From Alphaproteobacteria bacterium (GTDB lineage Bacteria > Pseudomonadota > Alphaproteobacteria > UBA7985 > JAUIBT01): DNA of 32,074 bases. Location: assembly GCA_030432195.1 (NCBI GenBank), contig JAUIHE010000019.1:1-32074 (forward strand). The letters are read 5' to 3'. The stretch's first letter is position 1. Each line of letters opens with the position of its first letter. The position numbers and the translations under genes are program-made. The notes beneath the pieces were generated by a model that saw only the letters and a program-made list of their open reading frames with translations, ran no database searches and was not told the DNA's origin. Of this stretch, positions 2,208 to 21,783 are shown piece after piece.

Positions 2208-5200
2208 CTAATGAAAATCACGGCTAGGAAACAAGCGCTTGGCTTGCTCGCGCGGATGGCGGGCACTGGCGGTCTTCTGTAGGCGCTTGGGAACATCGTC
2301 GCTTTGGGCCTGGGGCAGATGAATGGCCTCGTCCAAAGGGTGGCCCAAATCACGGAGCTTTCCTGACAGATCCTCGATCTTCTGGGCGATCAGATGTACC
2401 ACAATGCCCTCTCGCTCCAAATGGCCGGTAACTTTTAGTAAGCGCCCGCCTAAAACCACCCGGCGAAAGCGTTCATAGACCTTGGGCCAGACCACAACAT
2501 TAGACACCCCGGTTTCATCCTCAAGCGTCAAGAAAATCACCCCCGAAGCCGTGCCTGGCCGTTGGCGCGTGATGACCAGGCCGCAGACGCTGGTGCGCTT
2601 ATCAGGCGCCATAGCCAGTTGATCGTGAGCGGTCAGCCCCGGCAGGGTCGGGCGCAACAACTCCATAGGATGCGCGCGCAACGTGAGGCGGGTAGCGATA
2701 TAGTCCTCAACCACTTCTTCGCCCAGATGCATCGCGGGCAAGCTAATGCGTGGTTCGCGAATACACTCGCCGTCGATGGGATCGGCAAACAAGGGTAGCG
2801 GCGCGGGGGCGCGGATGGCCTTGACCTGCCACAGCGCATCGCGACGGGTCAACCCAACCCCCAGAAAAGCATCAGCTTCGGCCAGACGTTCCAGCACGCC
2901 AGGGGCGACACCGGCCCGCAGCCAAACAGACTCGGGATCTTGATACCCGTTACCGCGCGCGGCCTCGATCCATTCGGCGTCTTCCTTTTTGAAGCCCTTG
3001 ATTTGCCGAAAACCAAGTCGCAAAGCCAGAGCGCCATCGCTGCGGCGCTCTAACTGGTTATCCCAAGCGCTGGTATTGACACAGACTGGCCGCACCTCGA
3101 TTTGGTGGTCGCGTGCATCACGCACGATCTGAGCGGGCGCATAAAACCCCATGGGTTGCGCATTTAACAGCGCACAGGCAAAAACCGCTGGATGGTGGCG
3201 TTTGAGCCACGCCGAGACATAGACCAGCATGGCGAAGGCGGCGGCGTGGCTCTCTGGAAAGCCATAGTCGGCGAAGCCTTCGATTTGCGAAAAGCAGCTT
3301 GCCGCGAATTCGGGGCTATAACCACGATCCAACATGCCTTGAATGAAGCGATCGCGGAAAACGCTGATGGTGCCCAATCTGCGGAAAGTGGCCAGCGAGC
3401 GCCGCAGACGGTCGGCCTCTTCAGGGGTAAAGCCCGCGCCAACAACGGCGATTTGCATGGCCTGCTCTTGGAACAAAGGCACTCCCAGGGTCTTGGCCAT
3501 AACACCCTTCAGCTCCTCAGAGGGGTAGGAGACAGCCTCCAGCCCCTGGCGACGGCGCACGTAGGGTTGAACCATACCCCCTTGGATAGGGCCCGGGCGC
3601 ACAATGGCGACTTCAATCACCAGGTCATAGAAGGTGCGTGGACGCATACGCGGCAAGAAATTCATCTGCGCGCGGCTCTCGACTTGGAAGACGCCCACCG
3701 CGTCCGCAACGCAGAGCATGTCATAGGTGGCCGTGTCTTCTTGGGGAATGCCGGCCAAGGTCAGGGATCGCCCTTCATGCTGTTCCATCAGCCCAAAGGC
3801 CTTGCGAATGCAGGTGAGCATCCCCAGCCCCAGGACATCGACCTTCAAAATTCCCAGTGTGTCGATATCATCCTTATCCCATTCAATAATAGTGCGATCT
3901 TCCATGGCCGCATTTTCGATGGGGCAGAGCTCATCCAGGCGCCCTTTGGTAATGATGAAACCGCCGACGTGCTGGCCCAAATGCCGCGGAAACCCGATAA
4001 TTTCGCCGATCAAGCGCAAGGTTATGGCTAAGCGGCGGTCGCCAGGGTCCAAGCCCACTTCACGCACGCGATCTAAGTCGGCTCCCTCCCGCGACGAACC
4101 CCACATCTGCCCGGATAGGCTGGCCGTCACATCCTGCGACAGCCCCATGACCTTGCCGACTTCCCGAATGGCAGCGCGCGAACGAAAGTGCGTGACCGTC
4201 GCGCAGAGCCCGGCGCGATGGCGCCCATATTTTTGATAGATCCACTGGATGACTTCTTCACGCCGCTCGTGTTCAAAATCAACGTCAATGTCGGGTGGCT
4301 CACCGCGATGCTTCGAGACGAAGCGCTCAAACACCATGGCGATTTGCTCAGGGCTAACATCGGTAATGCCCAGCAGATAGCAAAGAATAGAGTTGGCGGC
4401 CGATCCGCGCCCCTGGCACAAGATCCCCTGAGACCTTGCGTACTGAACGATATCGTAGACGGTTAGGAAATAGGCTGGGAAGCCCAGCTCCGCAACTAAG
4501 CGCAACTCCTTTTCCATCAACTCAAGAACACGCGGGGTTGGGCCTTGCGGGTAGCGGCGCTGTAGGCCCGCCCGCACCAAGCGTTCCAGGCGGGCCTGTG
4601 GCGGCTCTGCATCGGTGACTTCATCGGGATATTCATAGCTCAGCTCACTGAGGCAAAAGGCACAGCGCGCGGCAATCTCCAGCGTGCGACGCAACGCGGC
4701 CGGGTGGTCCCCGAAAATGCGCGCCATGTCTCCCCCACTTTTCAATCGACGCTCAGCGTTGGGCAGGGCGCGGGTGCCGATTTCGTCAATGGTGATGTGC
4801 TCCCGCATACAGGTCAAAACATCGGCGAGCTGGCGGCGGCTGGCTCTGTGCATCAAAACATCGCCGACGGCCACCATTGGCGTTGACGTCTTCTGTGCCA
4901 GGCGGGAACAGGCCGCCAAATAAGCCTGATCGCTGCCGTCATAGCGAGGGGCCGCTCCCAAAAAAACATGCCCTGGAAACCGGCGGTGTAGCCGATTGAG
5001 ATCACGCGCCACCGTGTTGCAAAGCGGTCCCTGCGGCAGGCCAATCAGCGCCATCCCCTGACCAGCGTTCGTTTTTGGGTCGATCAAATCGTGTAAGTCC
5101 AGGTGGCATTGTCCTTTCTCGCTCCGGCGTTTGCCGAGCGTTAAAAGGCGGGTCAAGCGCTGGTAAGCCGTCCGGTCATAGGGCAGGGCGAGCCAATCGA

Positions 5201-5678
5201 GCGGGCTGTCACGAAGCACCAATCGGGCGCCCACAATCAGCTTGGGCAAAGTTTGATCCTGATTAGCTGGCGTCTGTTTAGCTGGCTCCTGGATCGTCGG
5301 GCCTTGTTGCGCCTCCTGCTCGCGCTTCAGTTCCTTGAGTGCCGCATAGGCGCGCACCACGCCCGCTAAGGAATTGCGGTCGGTAATAGCGATGGCGGCA
5401 AGGTTCAGCTCTGCGGCGCGAATAACCAGTTCTTCAGGGTGAGAGGCCCCGATCAAAAAACTGAAATTGGAGGTCACGCAAAGCTCCGCATAGTCCGGCT
5501 GAGCGGGCGGGCAGGCCATGGGTTCAGGCTGGCGAAAATAGGGCTCCAGGCCTTGCGGCGCTCCATCCTGCTGAAGGCCCCTTGCAGGCTCGTTGGCAGG
5601 CTCGTTGGCTGGCTCGTTGGCTGGCTGGAGTGCTGATTGGGGCGCTGATTGGGAGGGCTTTTTAGGCTCGGCAGTCAT
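2208..5678 (-). CDS. dnaE2: Error-prone DNA polymerase III alpha subunit DnaE2 (ImuC)
   Basis: A 1156-residue C-family polymerase alpha subunit of the damage-tolerance type, the catalytic member of the ImuA-ImuB-DnaE2 translesion unit. An N-terminal PHP domain starts with YAELCVTSNFSFLIGASHPEE (split here: YAELCVTSNFSFL, then IGASHPEE). The polymerase core has the metal-binding motif PDIDVDF (Asp at about residues 463, 465 and 467), GRGSAANS, and FPESHAAAFA; an OB-fold domain near the C-terminus carries GVIFLTLEDETG. I chose the ATG at 5678 because it overlaps the imuB stop (ATGA) and has AGGGGAG upstream; the frame extends further to 5765 inside imuB. Residues 19-32 are a PANE tandem repeat not expected in the family, placed before the PHP domain where it is likely tolerated. 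Confidence 0.95.
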   Translation of the reverse strand: MTAEPKKPSQSAPQSALQPANEPANEPANEPARGLQQDGAPQGLEPYFRQPEPMACPPAQPDYAELCVTSNFSFLIGASHPEELVIRAAELNLAAIAITDRNSLAGVVRAYAALKELKREQEAQQGPTIQEPAKQTPANQDQTLPKLIVGARLVLRDSPLDWLALPYDRTAYQRLTRLLTLGKRRSEKGQCHLDLHDLIDPKTNAGQGMALIGLPQGPLCNTVARDLNRLHRRFPGHVFLGAAPRYDGSDQAYLAACSRLAQKTSTPMVAVGDVLMHRASRRQLADVLTCMREHITIDEIGTRALPNAERRLKSGGDMARIFGDHPAALRRTLEIAARCAFCLSELSYEYPDEVTDAEPPQARLERLVRAGLQRRYPQGPTPRVLELMEKELRLVAELGFPAYFLTVYDIVQYARSQGILCQGRGSAANSILCYLLGITDVSPEQIAMVFERFVSKHRGEPPDIDVDFEHERREEVIQWIYQKYGRHRAGLCATVTHFRSRAAIREVGKVMGLSQDVTASLSGQMWGSSREGADLDRVREVGLDPGDRRLAITLRLIGEIIGFPRHLGQHVGGFIITKGRLDELCPIENAAMEDRTIIEWDKDDIDTLGILKVDVLGLGMLTCIRKAFGLMEQHEGRSLTLAGIPQEDTATYDMLCVADAVGVFQVESRAQMNFLPRMRPRTFYDLVIEVAIVRPGPIQGGMVQPYVRRRQGLEAVSYPSEELKGVMAKTLGVPLFQEQAMQIAVVGAGFTPEEADRLRRSLATFRRLGTISVFRDRFIQGMLDRGYSPEFAASCFSQIEGFADYGFPESHAAAFAMLVYVSAWLKRHHPAVFACALLNAQPMGFYAPAQIVRDARDHQIEVRPVCVNTSAWDNQLERRSDGALALRLGFRQIKGFKKEDAEWIEAARGNGYQDPESVWLRAGVAPGVLERLAEADAFLGVGLTRRDALWQVKAIRAPAPLPLFADPIDGECIREPRISLPAMHLGEEVVEDYIATRLTLRAHPMELLRPTLPGLTAHDQLAMAPDKRTSVCGLVITRQRPGTASGVIFLTLEDETGVSNVVVWPKVYERFRRVVLGGRLLKVTGHLEREGIVVHLIAQKIEDLSGKLRDLGHPLDEAIHLPQAQSDDVPKRLQKTASARHPREQAKRLFPSRDFH
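5583..5624 (-). repeat. 12-bp in-frame tandem repeat coding PANE in DnaE2
   Basis: The plus strand shows units of the form GGCTCGTTGGCT/GGCTCGTTGGCA, about three and a half copies. Read on the minus strand these give PANE-PANE-PANE-PA at residues 19-32 of DnaE2. Because the unit is exactly four codons, copy number changes keep the frame. Confidence 0.9.
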
Positions 5679-7204
5679 GCAAACTCCCCTTGCACGAACC
5701 AACCCGGATTTTGCGGCGTGTAATAGAGCCAAAGGCGGCGGCCTTGCTGGGTCTCTACGCGCCAATAATCACGCAGGCCAGTGCGCCAGTTGTTATCTTC
5801 ATGCCACCATTCAGGCGCGATGCGCTCGGGGCCGATAGCGCGCGCGGTCGTTAAGGCCATCCGTCGCCAGCGAAAGCGGGCAGGCGGGCGGTTGCCGCTT
5901 GCCTCAATAGGCTCAGCAGTGAACAACCGCAAAGGGCGAGGGTGGCCGTCGGCCCCCGATGAGGGAACAGCAGGCCAAGTTGGCAGCGTGCTTAAGGGGT
6001 GCGCAGCAGGGACCCGATGAAAGCTCCGCTCAGGGATGTGGGTATCACTGGGCACAAAACGCTGAATATTTTCCAACCCGATACGGGTGCCGAGCCGCGA
6101 AATAAGATCATCGAGCTGTTCTTTTTTGCGCCCACCGACAAAATAGCTAGCCTGCTCTGTCGGCAGATCCTCCACAGCGACAGCCTCTAAGCGCAATTGG
6201 TCGATGCCATACCCCGCTTCCACCGCGCCGACACCACGCTCAAACAAAGCCAAGATGCGCTGCGGATCACGCATAGGTCGCGCCAGCTTAAGCTCAACCT
6301 GTTGGTTCGCTTGATCGACGCGCCGCAAGGTTAAGCACAGACGACGGGCGCCGGCCTCTTGTGCCTTCAGTTTCTCACAGAGCCGCTCCAGCAAGCGCAA
6401 AGTGCCTGCCATTACATCTTGAGCAAGTCCAATCGGTTCGGGAAGGGTCAAGCGCACGCCATAATGCGGAGGCTCTGCCTTTGGGTTAACGGGCTCGGGC
6501 ATATCCCCCAAGGCCTGGTCAAGACGCAAATGCAGATCAGGCCCAAAGCGGCGGGCTAAGGGGCCGCGCGGCTTAGAAGCCAAACTGCCAATCGTGCGTA
6601 GACCCAAGCGTTGTAAGGCGACGATCGTCTTTTCCTCTAAGCGCAAGGCTGCAATGGGCAGGTCGCCAAGAGCCTGTAAACTCTGCCCCGGAGCCGCAAA
6701 TCCGCTGGGTTTATCGGGGCCGGCATAAGCCCGGTAATGCGCCAAGGCCCAAGCCGCGCCGCGCGTATCAGCCAGGCCAAGGCGCACACTAAAACCCGCA
6801 TCGGCTAAGCTTTGTTGCATATCATCAAGCAGGGCGATTTCACCGCCGACCAAGTGCGCCGACCCGGTAACACTCAGCGCAAGGCCATCGGGCCCGTCAA
6901 ACCCCACCCATGGGCAATAACGCAGCGCCCAGCGGTGCAAGACCTGTAAGAAGGCTTCATCACCAGCTAAGTCCGCCGGACGGCTTTGCAGATCGGGACA
7001 AAAAGCCCGCGCGTCTGAATAGGCCATACCGCGATGCAAGCCCTGCTGCTCTGCCGCTGCGTTTAAGCAATAGAGCCGATTGGCATTGTTTTGCTTTAAA
7101 GTCAGCGCGAATGGCCCATCAAAAGGATGCAACCTTAAGGCCCGATCACTCCCTAACCGAGGAAACCACGCACAAACGACGCGCTGCCCAATTCCATCGA
7201 ACAT
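5675..7204 (-). CDS. imuB: ImuB, Y-family polymerase-like protein without catalytic acids
   Basis: A 509-residue protein of the ImuB family, a Y-family polymerase paralogue that acts as a hub, joining DnaE2 to the beta clamp, instead of as a polymerase. It begins with VVCAWFPRLGSDRAL, typical for ImuB. The usual catalytic acids of DinB are absent: the first motif has no DxD, and the second motif reads DGLALSVTGSAHLVGGE with Ser where DinB has an Asp-Glu pair. Helix-hairpin-helix-like sequence follows (LQRLGLRTIGSLASKP). The C-terminus ends in LWLYYTPQNPGWFVQGEFA, typical for the family. The ATG at 7204 has AGGAG seven bases upstream and lies inside imuA, giving a 59-base overlap; the stop overlaps the dnaE2 start by four bases. 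Both overlaps suggest translational coupling. Confidence 0.94.
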   Translation of the reverse strand: MFDGIGQRVVCAWFPRLGSDRALRLHPFDGPFALTLKQNNANRLYCLNAAAEQQGLHRGMAYSDARAFCPDLQSRPADLAGDEAFLQVLHRWALRYCPWVGFDGPDGLALSVTGSAHLVGGEIALLDDMQQSLADAGFSVRLGLADTRGAAWALAHYRAYAGPDKPSGFAAPGQSLQALGDLPIAALRLEEKTIVALQRLGLRTIGSLASKPRGPLARRFGPDLHLRLDQALGDMPEPVNPKAEPPHYGVRLTLPEPIGLAQDVMAGTLRLLERLCEKLKAQEAGARRLCLTLRRVDQANQQVELKLARPMRDPQRILALFERGVGAVEAGYGIDQLRLEAVAVEDLPTEQASYFVGGRKKEQLDDLISRLGTRIGLENIQRFVPSDTHIPERSFHRVPAAHPLSTLPTWPAVPSSGADGHPRPLRLFTAEPIEASGNRPPARFRWRRMALTTARAIGPERIAPEWWHEDNNWRTGLRDYWRVETQQGRRLWLYYTPQNPGWFVQGEFA

Positions 7205-7700
7205 CCCAGGCTCCTAATATTCCCGATTTGTTCTTTGTAAGGGACCAGCGTTGACGTGTCCAGTCCTTTGCATCAAAAGCAGGGTCACATCGCCAGCGGG
7301 TCTCAGCGGCGGCGCTGCCAGCAGCATCTGCGATGAGGCATAATCCGGTCGATCGGCCGGTCTTTGCGGCCAACTGTAGGCGCCGCCCGGCGGTCAAATT
7401 CAGCGGGCGACTCAACTCCATCACGACCAATGAAACAGCACCATCACGCAGCGATTCTTCAGCAATAGCAAGGAGTTCAGCTTGATCTCGCGCCTTGGCC
7501 AGCAAAACAGAGGCCGGATCGACAAAACCAAGCAATCCTTGTGGGTTGAGCTGCTCGCTATGCCAGGATTCCTGACACCAAAGAGTCACGCCATCCATGA
7601 GGCCTGCTGAAATTGCCGCAAAGCTCCAAGCACCGGGGCCTTGTGCTTCATGGACACGACCTCGCTTGATCGGAAAGGCTGCAGGTAAATCGTCAGACAT
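7146..7700 (-). CDS. imuA: ImuA, RecA-like translesion accessory protein
   Basis: A 184-residue protein with the RecA/SulA-like pattern of short alphaproteobacterial ImuA: GRVHEAQGPGAWSFAA near the start, then SVLLAKARDQAEL and VVMELSRPLNLTAGRRLQLAAKTGRSTGLCLI. ImuA is required with ImuB and DnaE2 for damage-induced mutagenesis. It is first in the cassette. The ATG at 7700 (MSDDLPAAFPIKRG) was chosen; the frame continues upstream through two further ATGs into a perfect palindrome, which is better read as an operator. The ribosome binding site at 7700 is weak (GAG about nine bases upstream). No Walker A motif is evident, as expected for this reduced family. Confidence 0.85.
   Translation of the reverse strand: MSDDLPAAFPIKRGRVHEAQGPGAWSFAAISAGLMDGVTLWCQESWHSEQLNPQGLLGFVDPASVLLAKARDQAELLAIAEESLRDGAVSLVVMELSRPLNLTAGRRLQLAAKTGRSTGLCLIADAAGSAAAETRWRCDPAFDAKDWTRQRWSLTKNKSGILGAWDVRWNWAARRLCVVSSVRE
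7211..7215 (-). promoter_or_regulatory. Ribosome binding site fixing the imuB start
   Basis: AGGAG on the minus strand, six bases before the ATG at 7204 and inside the imuA reading frame. It supports a real 59-base imuA/imuB overlap in place of a later start. Confidence 0.7.
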
Positions 7701-7722
7701 AATGTTCTCATATGAGAACATT
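7701..7722 (-). promoter_or_regulatory. 22-bp perfect palindrome, candidate SOS operator of imuA-imuB-dnaE2
   Basis: Each half reads AATGTTCTCAT, and the two halves are exact reverse complements with no spacer. The site ends one base before the imuA ATG. Position and symmetry suggest a repressor site, most simply LexA. It does not match the usual alphaproteobacterial direct repeat GTTC-N7-GTTC; it has GTTC and GAAC facing inward around eight bases (TCTCATATGAGA core). No clear -35/-10 pair could be placed around it. Confidence 0.65.
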
Positions 7723-7795
7723 TGCATTTTGTCCACTAAAGAACACCGCAAGGCGGCCAGACGATCGCGGTAGCCTCACAACCCCACCGTGCAGG

Positions 7796-8404
7796 CTAGG
7801 CGAAACCCAGATCGACCATCAGCTCATGGATGTTGTCCTTGCCGAAATAGAGCTGCCCCCCAGCGATAAAGCTGGGAACACCAAACACACCAAGCTGTTC
7901 GGCTTTTTGCGTATTGGCGCGCAGAGCTTCCTTAACGGGTTCGGTGCGGCTGGCCTCCATCAGATCGGCAAACGGCAACCCCGCGTCAGTCAAACACCGC
8001 TCCAAAACCGTTGGTTCGGCCAAATTCGCGCCCTCAACCCAAGCGGCATGAAACAGCGCATCATCACAGGCATCGGCCAACCCCAAGGGTTCGGCTGCCA
8101 ATCGCAACCGTAGCGCCCGGATCGTCGAGAAGGGAAAGTAGGGGTTGTCACAAATTGGAATGTCATAACGCGCCGCATAGCGCTTAATCTCGTCCAGGAA
8201 ATAGTCTCGCTTAGCCTTAAGATCACCGATCACTTCCAGCGGAGGCGTATTCCCAATCGCACGAAATAGTCCCCCTAAAACCATCGGGACCGATTCGACC
8301 TCAAAACCGTGCTGCTGACCCAGCACTTTCAGTCGCTCGCGGGCCAAATGGGCATTTGGACTCACGTAGTCATAAAAAAATTGAATGCTTGTCGGCGTCG
8401 TCAC
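7796..8404 (-). CDS. 2-hydroxychromene-2-carboxylate isomerase-like protein (kappa-class GST, DsbA fold)
   Basis: 202 residues with the thioredoxin-like HCCA isomerase pattern: FFYDYVSPNAHLA at the start, where Ser15 is the expected glutathione-activating residue, VPMVLGGLFRAIGNTPP, and the cis-proline motif GVFGVPSF near the C-terminus. Family members use glutathione; some isomerise hydroxychromene carboxylate in naphthalene breakdown, but most bacterial copies have unknown substrates and no aromatic pathway genes are visible here. The start is GTG at 8404 with AGGAG eight bases upstream. It follows the imuA operator region in the same direction and faces away from the acyl-CoA ligase gene, sharing a 134-base upstream region with it. 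Confidence 0.85.
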   Translation of the reverse strand: MTTPTSIQFFYDYVSPNAHLARERLKVLGQQHGFEVESVPMVLGGLFRAIGNTPPLEVIGDLKAKRDYFLDEIKRYAARYDIPICDNPYFPFSTIRALRLRLAAEPLGLADACDDALFHAAWVEGANLAEPTVLERCLTDAGLPFADLMEASRTEPVKEALRANTQKAEQLGVFGVPSFIAGGQLYFGKDNIHELMVDLGFA

Positions 8405-11679: not shown

Positions 11680-13023
11680 GTGCTGACTTCTGTACTGGAC
11701 CGCTTTCCGGCCGATTTTGAATTTGGCGTCGCAACGGCCGCCTATCAAATAGAGGGCGGCCAGACAGACGGCAGGGGGCCCAGCATCTGGGACAGCTTTG
11801 CAGCAACCGGACGCAACGTCGTTGGCAAAGAGGACGGCCGCATTGCTTGCGATCATTACAATCGCTGGCCGCAGGACTTGGACTTGATTCGCAGCGGCGG
11901 CTTTGATGCCTACCGTTTTTCCTTTGCCTGGCCGCGCTTGCTGCCCGACGGCAAAGGCGCGATCAATGCAAAGGGTTTGGCGTTCTATGACCGCCTGATC
12001 GACGGCATGCTTGAACGCGGGATCAAGCCCAACGCGACGCTTTACCATTGGGACTTGCCCAGCGCGTTGCAGGACAAAGGCGGCTGGATGAACCGGGACA
12101 TTGCAAGCTGGTTCAGCGACTATGCGCAACTGGTCGCCAATCACTACGGTGACCGACTGGCGCAAGTGGCCACCATCAATGAACCTTGGTGCGTCGCTTT
12201 TCTCTCGCACCGCTTGGGCATCCATGCCCCGGGTTATCGCGACCTGCGCGCCGCCGCGCGTGCCATGCACCACACCATGCTGGCTCACGGCACGGCGGTG
12301 CAAACCTTGCGCTCTTGCGGTGTCGGCAACCTGGGCCTGGTCATGAATTTCGAACCGGCCGAGGCCGGCGACCAATCGCCTGAAAGCCAGCAAGCGGCAC
12401 AGCTTTGGGACGGCCTTTACAATCGTTGGTATCTGGGAGGCGTCACGCAGGGCCGCTATCCTGAAGACGTGTGTCAGGCGTTGCAAGCTTACCTGCCAGA
12501 AAACTACCAGGACGACATGGCGGTTGTCTCGGAGCCCTTGGATTGGCTCGGCGTGAACTATTACACACGCGGTCGCTGGTACCAGGATCGACAGGTCAGC
12601 GCGCCAGACCTGGGCGACGTTGTGGCCGCAGGCGGCCCGCTGGCAAAAACGCAGATGGGATGGGAGATTTTCCCGCAGGGCCTGCGCGATACCTTGCTGC
12701 GCATCCACCGCGACTACAGCAAGCTGCCGATCTACGTGACCGAAAACGGCATGGCGTGGGATGACCATGTGGTCGATGGCGCCGTGCACGACGATTTACG
12801 CTGCGCCTACTTCCGCGAACACCTTTCAGCCTGCCTGGAAGCCATGGCAGCGGGCGTTCCGCTGAAGGGCTATTACGCTTGGTCTTTGTTGGACAACTAT
12901 GAGTGGGCCGAAGGCTACTCCAAGCGGTTTGGTATCGTACATGTTGATTATGACAGCCAAGTTCGCAGCCCCAAGAAGTCTTATCTTGCCTGGCAGGCTG
13001 GATTATCGGCGCGACGAGGATAG
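11680..13023 (+). CDS. Glycoside hydrolase family 1 beta-glucosidase
   Basis: 447 residues, the normal length for bacterial GH1 enzymes. The start FPADFEFGVATAAYQIEGG, the acid/base motif TINEPW (Glu about 168), LGVNYYTR, and the nucleophile motif YVTENGMAWDD (Glu about 355) are all present, as is YYAWSLLDNYEWAEGYSKRFG. Both catalytic glutamates are retained, so it should be an active retaining beta-glycosidase. No signal peptide is seen, which implies a cytoplasmic enzyme acting on imported beta-glucosides, yet no sugar transporter lies beside it. GTG start. It follows the aminotransferase by four bases and precedes the MerR gene by seven. Confidence 0.95.
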   Translation: MLTSVLDRFPADFEFGVATAAYQIEGGQTDGRGPSIWDSFAATGRNVVGKEDGRIACDHYNRWPQDLDLIRSGGFDAYRFSFAWPRLLPDGKGAINAKGLAFYDRLIDGMLERGIKPNATLYHWDLPSALQDKGGWMNRDIASWFSDYAQLVANHYGDRLAQVATINEPWCVAFLSHRLGIHAPGYRDLRAAARAMHHTMLAHGTAVQTLRSCGVGNLGLVMNFEPAEAGDQSPESQQAAQLWDGLYNRWYLGGVTQGRYPEDVCQALQAYLPENYQDDMAVVSEPLDWLGVNYYTRGRWYQDRQVSAPDLGDVVAAGGPLAKTQMGWEIFPQGLRDTLLRIHRDYSKLPIYVTENGMAWDDHVVDGAVHDDLRCAYFREHLSACLEAMAAGVPLKGYYAWSLLDNYEWAEGYSKRFGIVHVDYDSQVRSPKKSYLAWQAGLSARRG

Positions 13024-17509: not shown

Positions 17510-18814
17510 TTAGAGATCGAACAATAGGCGTTCGGGCGCTTCAAGCGCTTCCTTAACTTTCACCAAGAAAGTCACAGCCTCGCGACCATCAATGATCCGG
17601 TGATCGTAGGACATCGCCAAATACATCATCGGGCGGATGACGATCTGGCCATTTTCCACAACAGGGCGTTCTTGGATCTTGTGCATACCCAAAATGCCGG
17701 ACTGAGGCGTGTTGAGGATCGGCGTTGAATTCAACGAGCCATAGATACCGCCATTTGAGATGGTGAAGGTGCCGCCTTGCATCTCTGCCATCGACAACTT
17801 GCCATCGCGTGCGCGCACACCAAAATCAGCGATTGTTTTCTCAACATCAGCGAAGCTCATGTCGTCCGCATCACGCAGAACCGGCACGACCAATCCGCTG
17901 GGCGTACCAACTGCAACGCCTACGTTGAAATAGTTCTTATAGATGATGTCGGTGCCGTCGATCTCGGCATTGACCGCGGGCAAATCCTTCAGGGCGTTGA
18001 CGCAGGCCTTCACGAAGAAGGACATGAAACCCAGCTTGACGCCGTGTTTGGCCACGAAGTCGTCTTGCAGGCGCTTACGAGTCGCCATCACCGCCGACAT
18101 ATCAACCTCGTTGAAAGTCGTGAGCATAGCGGCGGTATTTTGGGCCTCTTTCAGACGGCGCGCGATGGTCTGGCGCAGGCGTGTCATCCGAACGCGCTCT
18201 TCGCGGGGTCCTGTTTCACGCGGTGCTGCGGGCGCAGCGATTGGGGCAGGCGCCGGAGCAGGGGCCGCCGCGGCTGCAAGAACATCGCCCTTTGTTAGGC
18301 GCCCATCTTTGCCCGATCCAGGAATGTCAGCAGCATTGAGCTGTTGGTTTTCGGCCAGCAGCTTTGCGACGGCTGGCGACTTGGCATCGGAAGCGGCGGC
18401 AGGTGCGGGCGCTGCACGTGTTGGCAGATCCGGCATTGCTGCCTGGGTGCTTGCCTGGGTGCTTGCCTGGGTGCTTGCCTGGGTGCTTGCCTGGGTGCTT
18501 GCCTGGGTGCTTGCCTGGGTGCTTGCCTGGGTGCTTGCTGGCGCGCTGGCGGGGACGGGCGCTGCCGCAGCACTGGCGCTTTCATCGATCATGCCCAAAA
18601 CGGCGCCGACTTCGACCGTCGCACCTTCTTCAGCCAAGACCTGGTGCAGAACACCGGCGGCCGTTGCATTGACTTCCAACGTCACTTTATCTGTCTCCAG
18701 CTCGACCAGCGCTTCATCAAGCGTCACAGTGTCGCCAGGCTTTTTCAACCAGTTTGAGACCGTGGCCTCGGTTACAGACTCGCCCAATGTTGGGACCAAA
18801 ATTTCGCTTGCCAT
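17510..18814 (-). CDS. odhB: Dihydrolipoyl succinyltransferase, E2 of 2-oxoglutarate dehydrogenase
   Basis: 434 residues. The lipoyl domain (about 2-76) has ETDKVTLEV with the lipoyl-lysine at about 43; the peripheral subunit-binding domain follows ([26 protein letters not shown]); the C-terminal acyltransferase domain ends with [11 protein letters not shown], with catalytic His about 405 and Asp about 409. It transfers the succinyl group from E1 to CoA. The ATG at 18814 has AGGAAA upstream; the frame extends to 18874 but homology starts at MASEIL. The linker after the lipoyl domain contains eight identical ASTQ repeats. It follows odhA by 59 bases. The E3 gene (lpd), often next to it, is not in the window. 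Confidence 0.96.
18441..18536 (-). repeat. 12-bp tandem repeat, 8 identical copies, coding ASTQ in the OdhB linker
   Basis: The unit GCCTGGGTGCTT (plus strand) occurs eight times with no base change. On the minus strand it encodes ASTQ repeated eight times in the Ala/Pro-rich linker between the lipoyl and subunit-binding domains. Absence of silent changes points to recent expansion by slippage or recombination, or to active homogenisation. Confidence 0.97.
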
Positions 18815-18873
18815 GTCGTTTCCTATTTGCGGGGCGTTTTGCTGGGGGCGATGGATGCAAGACCCAACCCGCA

Positions 18874-21783
18874 CTAGCGGGTTATGGGGCCTGTTAAAGC
18901 AGCGGTGATAAGCGCAGCTTGTTGCGCGGCGTGTTTGCTGGCTGAGCCGGTTGCTGGTGAAGCAGCCTCTGCGCGGCCAGCGTAGCCAGCGCGCGTATGT
19001 TCAGCGCCAAGTTTGATAAAGGTCTTCTCAAGCCTCGGCTCAATAAAGCTCCAAGCTCCCATATTTTTGGGTTCTTCTTGGCACCAAACGAACTCGGCAT
19101 GCTTGAAGACTTTCAGCTCTTCCAAAAGCGCGTCTTCTGGGAACGGGTAGAGCTGCTCAACACGCATGACATAGACGTCCTTGACGCCCTGTTCCTCGGC
19201 CGCGGCCTTAATGTCGTAGTAGACCTTGCCGGAGCACAGGATGACCCGGCGGGTCTCATGCGGTTCACAAGCCGGACTGTCATCCCATAATAGCCGGTGG
19301 AAGTTGGTGCCGTCCAGGAACTCTTCCTTGCGCGACTGGGCTTGCTTGTGTCGCAGCAGCGACTTGGGCGAAAAGACCACCAGAGGCTTACGGAAGCGGC
19401 GGTGGATCTGACGACGCAAAACGTGGAAGTAGTTCGCGGGCGTCGTAACGTTGACGATCTGCCAGTTGTCTTCCGCACTCATCTGCAAGAAGCGTTCGAT
19501 GCGAGCGGAGGAGTGCTCTGGGCCTTGGCCTTCAAAGCCGTGGGGCAGCAGCATCACCAGGCCCGAAAAGCGCAGCCACTTACTCTCTGCCGAAGCGATG
19601 AACTGGTCGATCATGATTTGGGCGCCGTTCGCGAAGTCACCGAACTGGGCTTCCCAAAGCGTCAGACCGTTAGGCTCAGCGGTTGAATAACCGTATTCAA
19701 AGCCCAGCACCGCGTATTCAGACAAGTGCGAGTTGTGGATATCCAAGAAGGCTTCTTGATCTGCCCGCAAGTTGTTGAGCGGCAAATAGGGTTCTTCGCT
19801 CACCTGGTCGATCAAAGCAGCATGGCGGTGCGAGAAGGTGCCGCGGCGCACGTCCTGGCCAGAAAAACGGATAGGGTGCCCTTCGTCCAACAAAGTGCCA
19901 AACGCCAGGGCCTCTCCGGTTCCCCAGTCAAAACCTTCGCCCTTTTCGAACATGTCCTGCTTGGCTTTCAACAAGCGCGTCAGCTTGGAATTCAGGTTGA
20001 AGCCTTCAGGGACGGTGGTCAAGGCCTTGCCGACGCGATCATAGGCATCTTCTTTGATCGCCGTATGGCCGCGGCGCGGGCCGTCGTCGGGGTTGCCGCG
20101 TTCATAGTCTTCCCACATGCCACGAAGCATGTCGGGCTCGTTAGCACGGAAGGTGTCGGACAATTCAAACGACTCGTCCAACTCGCGCTCTTTATCTGCG
20201 CGGATCTTATCGACGGCGGCCTGGCTCAAGGTACCTTCGCCGATCAGCTTGGCTGCGTAAATTTCTGAGACCTTTGGATGTTTTTCAATGGCCTTGTACA
20301 TCAGCGGCTGGCTAAAGCGCGGCTCGTCGCCCTCGTTGTGACCAAAGCGTCGATAGCAGAACAGATCGATGACAATGTCTTTCTTGAACTGCTGGCGGAA
20401 CTCGGTTGCGATACGCGCCACGTGGACCACTGCTTCCGGATCGTCGCCGTTGACGTGCAAGATCGGCGCGGCAATCATTTTCGCAACGTCGGTGCAGTAG
20501 GGGCCAGACCGCGCATTGCTGGGGTTCGTCGTGAAGCCGATCTGGTTGTTGACGACCAGATGGATTGTGCCACCGACGCGATAGCCCTTCAGCTCTGACA
20601 TCTCCAGCGTTTCCGGCACGACGCCTTGGCCCGCAAACGCGGCATCACCATGCAGCAAAATGGGCATGACACGGGTACGCTCTTCATCGCCCTTTTGGTT
20701 CTGCTTGGCGCGCACCTTACCGGCAACCACCGGGTTAACTGCTTCCAAATGCGATGGGTTCGCGGTCAACGACAGGTGGACCTTGTTGTCGTCAAATTCG
20801 CGGTCGTCTGAAGCTCCCAAGTGGTACTTTACGTCACCAGAGCCAACAACATCGTCGGGTACGTTGAACTGATGACCTTTGAACTCCGCAAAGATCGTCG
20901 CGTAGGCCTTGTTCATGACATTGGCAAGCACGTTCAGCCGCCCACGGTGCGGCATACCGATGACCACCTCGTCAATGCCCAGTTGGCCGCCGCGTTTTAG
21001 GATTTGCTCCATGGCGGGCATAAGCGCTTCGCCGCCGTCCAGACCAAAACGCTTCGTCCCTTTGAACTTCTTGTCCAAATAGGCTTCAAAGCTCTCAGCA
21101 TCGACAATGCGCTCGAAGATCGCGGTCTTGCCGGCAAGGGTAAAATCGGTGTGGTTCGAAATCTTTTCGATGCGCTCTTGGATCCAGCTTTTCTGAGCGG
21201 GTTCCTGGATGTGCATGTATTCAACGCCGACGCTTCCGCAGTAGGTTGCGGTCAGGCGCTCCAAAACTTCTTCCAGCGTTGGGTCATAGTCGCCAAAGCC
21301 CAAGACGCCCCCAACATAGATTGGACGGCCATAGTCATCTTCGCCGAGGCCGTGGAACGCAGGGTCCAGCTCGCGAATGGGCTCGTGCTTTTTCAGCCCC
21401 AAGGGGTCCAGTTTGGCGTAGTGATGGCCCAGAACGCGAAACGCGCGAACCAATCCGATGACCTTAATGGTCCGTTCCGTGGCATCTGTATGGGCACGGC
21501 TGTCGCTGACCACCGGTTCTTTGGCCCCAGCTTTGCCGTTCGGTTTGGGGGCGTCTGGATCCTTAACGCCAATGACGCGCGTCTGCCGCGCCGCCCAGTT
21601 GGGGCCCTCAATATCCGCCAACAAGCTGCGCTCGTCTTCGCCCAATTCTGCGAAGAACGATTGCCAATCCGGTTCGACGTCGCTGGGAGCCGCCAGGTAT
21701 CTTTGATACAGCTGTGAAATGAAGGTGATGTTGCCCGCATTCAAAAATGCAAGCGGGTCGCGTTGGTCGGCTGGCTGTGTCAT
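18874..21783 (-). CDS. odhA: 2-oxoglutarate dehydrogenase E1 component
   Basis: 969 residues, thiamine-diphosphate-dependent E1, which decarboxylates 2-oxoglutarate and passes the succinyl group to OdhB. Landmarks: [20 protein letters not shown] at the N-terminus (E2-binding part), [29 protein letters not shown], the cofactor segment [33 protein letters not shown] ([10 protein letters not shown] core), SHRHAAL and [23 protein letters not shown] ([12 protein letters not shown] core). Length and order are normal. It is the first gene of the pair with odhB and reads away from the suf operon. ATG at 21783; no strong ribosome binding site is visible. Confidence 0.97.

Follow-up and report, generated by a model that had tools for sequence, protein, structure and literature searches.

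A predicted LexA operator with inverted half-sites abuts imuA in a probably acquired alphaproteobacterial mutagenesis cassette

The 22-bp palindrome upstream of imuA in the window, the 32,074-nucleotide stretch of alphaproteobacterial DNA analyzed here, is most likely the predicted LexA operator of the imuA-imuB-dnaE2 cassette, with its two half-sites inverted (GTTC-N8-GAAC) instead of directly repeated (GTTC-N7-GTTC). The best explanation of the evidence as a whole, which we regard as probable, is that it represents the SOS operator of a probably acquired cassette, an inverted site for an ordinary LexA that is superimposed on a putative promoter. The site resembles a LexA operator in its predicted role, yet it lacks the direct repeat by which operators of this class are defined and is labeled a variant for that reason. 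The identity of the cassette itself follows from its gene order and matching protein families (Table 1).

Table 1. Features of the imuA region and their positions in the window
Feature	Positions	Strand	Basis or remarks
Inverted LexA-type operator candidate, GTTC-N8-GAAC	7701-7722	none	Sequence, conservation, and half-site ranks
Operator half-sites	GTTC 7704-7707; GAAC 7716-7719
Proposed -10 element, TATGAG	7707-7712	minus	Within the palindrome; read by eye; putative
Proposed -35 element, TGGACA	7730-7735	minus	TAGACA in G001, TGGACT in G002; putative
Decayed internal LexA box, GAACAAATCGGGAAT	7219-7233	minus	imuA 3' end; last base lost
imuA, short Rhodobacterales type (184 aa)	7146-7700	minus	ATG 7700-7698; no Pfam match
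imuB (509 aa)	5675-7204	minus	Pfam IMS, IMS_C, DUF6504
dnaE2, error-prone DNA polymerase III alpha	2208-5765	minus	Pfam; start codon uncertain
DsbA-like thioredoxin gene	7796-8404	minus	Upstream, co-oriented, outside the cassette

Sequence and conservation of the palindrome

The site reads AATGTTCTCATATGAGAACATT, an exact palindrome whose 11-nt arms meet without a spacer, and rereading of the sequence bore out the symmetry claimed for it in an earlier note on this DNA. The one-base gap that the note had placed between the site and the imuA start codon does not exist, as the palindrome touches the ATG directly. No other perfect palindrome in the window is as long (the runner-up has 16 bp), and palindromes of at least 22 bp arose in 3 of 300 first-order Markov simulations of the window. 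Thus, its length alone is an event of about 1% and constitutes modest evidence; its conservation is stronger evidence. Upstream in-frame ATGs at 7721 and 7727 could place the palindrome within the imuA reading frame. However, an in-frame TAA lies inside the site in one congener (G001) and alignments with Rhodobacterales ImuA proteins begin with residue 1 at the ATG given in Table 1, which indicates that the palindrome is located 5' of imuA.

The genome to which the window belongs (G000; 3.14 Mb, 224 contigs, 86% complete) was compared with those of two congeners (G001 and G002). The pattern ATGTTCT-N6-AGAACAT is found at the equivalent imuA position in both and hence in all three species of the genus that were available, the imuA-abutting site being ATGTTCTCATAAGAGAACAT in G001 and ATGTTCTTCTATGAGAACAT in G002. 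In both arms, the outer 7 bases are invariant among the three, and the inner 6 are variable. The arms are kept although the upstream DNA diverges, to the extent that the upstream sequence of G002 is unrelated.

Each of the three congener genomes contains exactly one copy of ATGTTCT-N6-AGAACAT, in every case at imuA. A search of 382 other genomes from the class gave five matches, which is approximately the chance expectation. The pattern is thus no regulon-wide motif. An exact scan of G000 for the shorter GTTC-N8-GAAC returned 42 sites, compared with 213 for the reversed control pattern. No regulon of inverted boxes was seen, as the few near matches inspected in the three genomes are intragenic (for example, in a cytochrome oxidase gene) or lie elsewhere than at SOS genes. 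Similarly, the inverted arrangement at 12 bp was not seen at any SOS gene other than imuA within the three congener genomes.

Half-sites, LexA, and the SOS regulon

To score half-sites, we used a matrix derived from 39 canonical direct-repeat LexA boxes of imuA and lexA promoters, 36 of which come from outside the genus, and applied it to every ten-base position on either strand of the window (64,130 in total). The palindrome arms rank 4th and 5th, which identifies them as half-sites of the LexA type (AGAACATT), and this word fits the second-half consensus of LexA boxes. The matrix lends support to the earlier note, which had suggested inverted GTTC/GAAC halves for the site. The top-ranked half-site of the window belongs to a box located inside imuA, which is discussed below.

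The position of the site also matches that of LexA boxes at other promoters of this SOS gene. That GTTC-N7-GTTC is the usual control site of alphaproteobacterial imuA, as had been stated beforehand, is confirmed by the class-wide comparison, in which 23 of 27 non-congener imuA loci are preceded by an exact match to GAAC-N7-GAAC or to its reverse. A direct repeat is also present in 7 of 72 Rhodobacterales-type imuA promoters, and in six of those seven it lies at -20 to -22. The imuA promoters of all congeners in the window genus lack GTTC-N7-GTTC, and the inverted repeat in the window starts at -19 from the imuA ATG. As judged from sequence, no single argument for LexA is better than this agreement in position with the direct-repeat boxes. 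The inverted pair at 12 bp is absent from all 98 other alphaproteobacterial imuA promoters examined, so that use of this geometry by LexA would be without precedent in the class, which counts against the proposed operator. No reports of inverted alphaproteobacterial LexA boxes or of an internal imuA box were found in the open literature searched. An imuA-like gene without a neighboring imuB was also observed in another genome (L051 in G090); ATGTTCTCAT in its promoter has only one arm and, given that no imuB is adjacent, was not counted as a related site.

The earlier note had proposed that the lineage might use a diverged LexA site. The recognition helix of LexA in this genus, SKSGIHRLITGLEERGF, is the standard alphaproteobacterial one, with at most conservative changes in 17 other genomes compared, and the S24 cleavage domain is present. 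The single lexA gene carries a canonical autoregulatory direct-repeat box, GAACTAAGATAGAAC, at -103 in all three congeners, and ssb has the canonical direct-repeat box GAACTAAACGAGAAC. LexA is the sole S24 repressor found in G000; G001 and G002 have additional S24 repressors in varying numbers, with scores far below that of LexA, and a search for a second, diverged LexA paralogue did not find one. Because the helix is standard and the lexA and ssb boxes are canonical, the idea of a diverged LexA fails, and the inversion is specific to imuA. The palindrome was also sought at lexA and recA, its absence from which had been put forward as half of the case against a lineage-wide site, and it is common to neither.

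The recA gene of G000 was not found, probably owing to the incompleteness of the assembly (86%), and the congener genes were used instead. The recA promoters of G001 and G002 (L100 and L101) contain TTTGTTCTTGCTTTYTTCGGMAAAAGAACATAC, which corresponds to GTTC-N18-GAAC plus a weak middle half-site. Of 20 recA promoters from Alphaproteobacteria, this genus included, 5 have the GTTC-N18-GAAC arrangement; the three found outside the genus (L221, L223, and L224) include one from the same order. Opposite-orientation half-sites are thus not foreign to SOS promoters of the class. The opposite half-sites at recA are 22 bp apart, equivalent to two helical turns.

Three further canonical LexA boxes in G000 (L027, L041, and L042, on C71 and C142) were observed just upstream of small, similar genes encoding ...RGEAxxRxLYPPV..HxWRS..., to which no function was assigned. 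These genes are possibly a family of SOS-controlled paralogues.

Putative promoter, proposed mechanism, and alternative explanations

We propose that a single ordinary LexA dimer would bind the palindrome, with one DNA-binding domain on each GTTC-type half-site. The site appears to overlie the -10 element and the transcription start, in which case bound LexA would block RNA polymerase, and RecA-stimulated self-cleavage of LexA upon DNA damage would release the whole cassette. We infer all four elements of this scheme, namely, LexA binding, the promoter, repression, and damage induction, from sequence. The candidate -10 is TATGAG in G000 and G002 and TAAGAG in G001, the spacing between the proposed -35 and -10 is 17 bp in all three congeners, and the -35, as read by eye, contains GAC. 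The proposed hexamers are weak, and an automatic scan returned no promoter at threshold. If the promoter read by eye is correct, transcription begins at the ATG or immediately beside it.

We lean somewhat toward the view that one unchanged LexA reads two geometries, i.e., the direct repeat at lexA and ssb and the two-fold GTTC-N8-GAAC at the cassette. If so, no DNA-binding domain would have to be flipped at the symmetric site, LexA binding could be tighter there, and the error-prone polymerase might be under later or stricter control than the remaining regulon.

Both arms are near-consensus LexA half-sites, a match that would not be expected if imuA were controlled, independently of SOS or alongside it, by a dedicated non-LexA dimeric helix-turn-helix repressor. 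We consider this possibility unlikely, although the symmetry is typical of ordinary dimeric repressors and a palindrome with a single copy in the genome stands apart from a LexA regulon that otherwise uses direct repeats here. No regulator gene lies beside the cassette; the nearest ones, of the MerR and Rrf2 types, are at 12899 and 22189, respectively. Furthermore, private repressors usually mark their own promoter, yet none of the three genomes contains a second copy of the palindrome.

The inverted repeat could also act as RNA, with a 9-bp hairpin before the start codon limiting imuA translation, and the predicted folding energies (-11.7 kcal/mol with a z of -3.6 in the window and -12.7 with a z of -4.2 in G001) are in keeping with such a structure. 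However, the arms are identical in the three species with zero compensatory changes, and the inner bases vary and are unpaired in G002; recognition by a protein fits identical arms and varying inner bases better. The proposed -10 is inside the palindrome, so that the transcript would begin past it, and an Rfam search gave no match. An RNA role is thus improbable in our judgment. Least credible of all is that the palindrome is a degenerate remnant or a chance occurrence and that SOS control is exerted via the internal imuA box (one mismatch), since that box, despite its top-ranked half-site and its strict retention in Rhodobacterales, lacks its last base in each of the three congeners, and the palindrome arms are conserved across these species within intergenic DNA that otherwise is not.

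Origin of the cassette and comparison with known systems

ImuA was assigned by homology to Rhodobacterales ImuA, with roughly 46 to 61% identity. Among the best 80 relatives of ImuB in a species-level genome collection, one is from a congener and almost all others are from Rhodobacterales, at no more than 68% identity; the remaining few are from Stappiaceae and others. The identity of ImuB to the proteins of order-mates is 31 to 36%, and the ImuB tree places the genus within the Rhodobacterales-type group (100/100 support), apart from its own order. LexA, unlike ImuB, has no Rhodobacterales affinity, being 52 to 64% identical to all sequences compared, with higher values in some over its short N-terminal portion. 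These patterns are most simply explained by horizontal acquisition, and the cassette (window positions 2208-7700) was probably acquired from Rhodobacterales. Elsewhere in the window, the linker of a dihydrolipoamide succinyltransferase-like protein (17510-18874, minus strand) contains consecutive ASTQ repeats.

Nearly all Rhodobacterales-type cassettes contain a perfect LexA box, GAACAAATCRGGAAC, inside the 3' end of imuA, in most cases 29 nt before the aligned imuB start (loci L103 to L181). Its codons AAG AAC AAA are present in every one of the 73 genes that are in frame, including that of congener G002, and the next conserved codon is GGA in 72 of 73, GGA accounting for 11% of the Gly codons in those genes; as the species are related, these counts are not independent. 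The box also persists in four loci with no recognizable imuA (L119, L122, L159, and L167). In Rhodobacterales, this internal box, frozen at synonymous sites, looks like an SOS operator for imuB. The three congeners of the window genus have GAACAAATCGGGAAT or GAACAAATCAGGAAT in its place, the last base being lost in each. This suggests, as we infer, that in this genus the imuA promoter took over control from the internal box. Thus, an acquired mutagenesis cassette may have been rewired, with its operator shifted from the interior of imuA to its start.

The form of the LexA box has changed repeatedly during evolution. To our knowledge, how the symmetric LexA dimer came to recognize a direct repeat in Alphaproteobacteria is considered an open question. 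A natural palindromic resetting of the half-sites with an unchanged LexA would make that question directly testable, and it raises the further questions of whether half-site orientation is free and how it affects affinity and the timing of induction.

The closest known system is the alphaproteobacterial GTTC-N7-GTTC box at imuA-imuB-dnaE2, which shares with the site described here the half-site word AGAACAT, the promoter, the downstream cassette, the DNA-binding domain of LexA, and an approximately equal distance to the start codon. However, the half-sites of that box point in the same direction with 7 bp between them (11 start to start), whereas those of the window genus face each other across 8 bp (12 start to start). 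The Rhodobacterales cassettes (Litoreibacter, Roseovarius, and Ruegeria) likewise have a short ImuA, an ImuB that is 68% identical and falls in one clade (100/100), and, in a subset, an operator abutting the imuA ATG. They differ in that their internal imuA box is perfect and in that the imuA-proximal box, where present, is a direct repeat.

Palindromic LexA boxes are known from other phyla. The LexA box of Verrucomicrobia is TGTTC-N4-GAACA. That of Bacillus subtilis is GAAC-N4-GTTC (PMC3323433). Both resemble the present site in being GTTC/GAAC palindromes at SOS promoters, but their spacers are 4 bp rather than 8 bp, the word order in Bacillus is the opposite, and the LexA proteins differ. 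The Escherichia coli box, CTGT-N8-ACAG (PMC8565304), has, like other gammaproteobacterial boxes, the same geometry as the site at imuA, a two-fold inverted repeat whose 4-bp half-sites are separated by 8 bp; the word here is GTTC instead of CTGT, and the LexA that would read it is of the alphaproteobacterial type.
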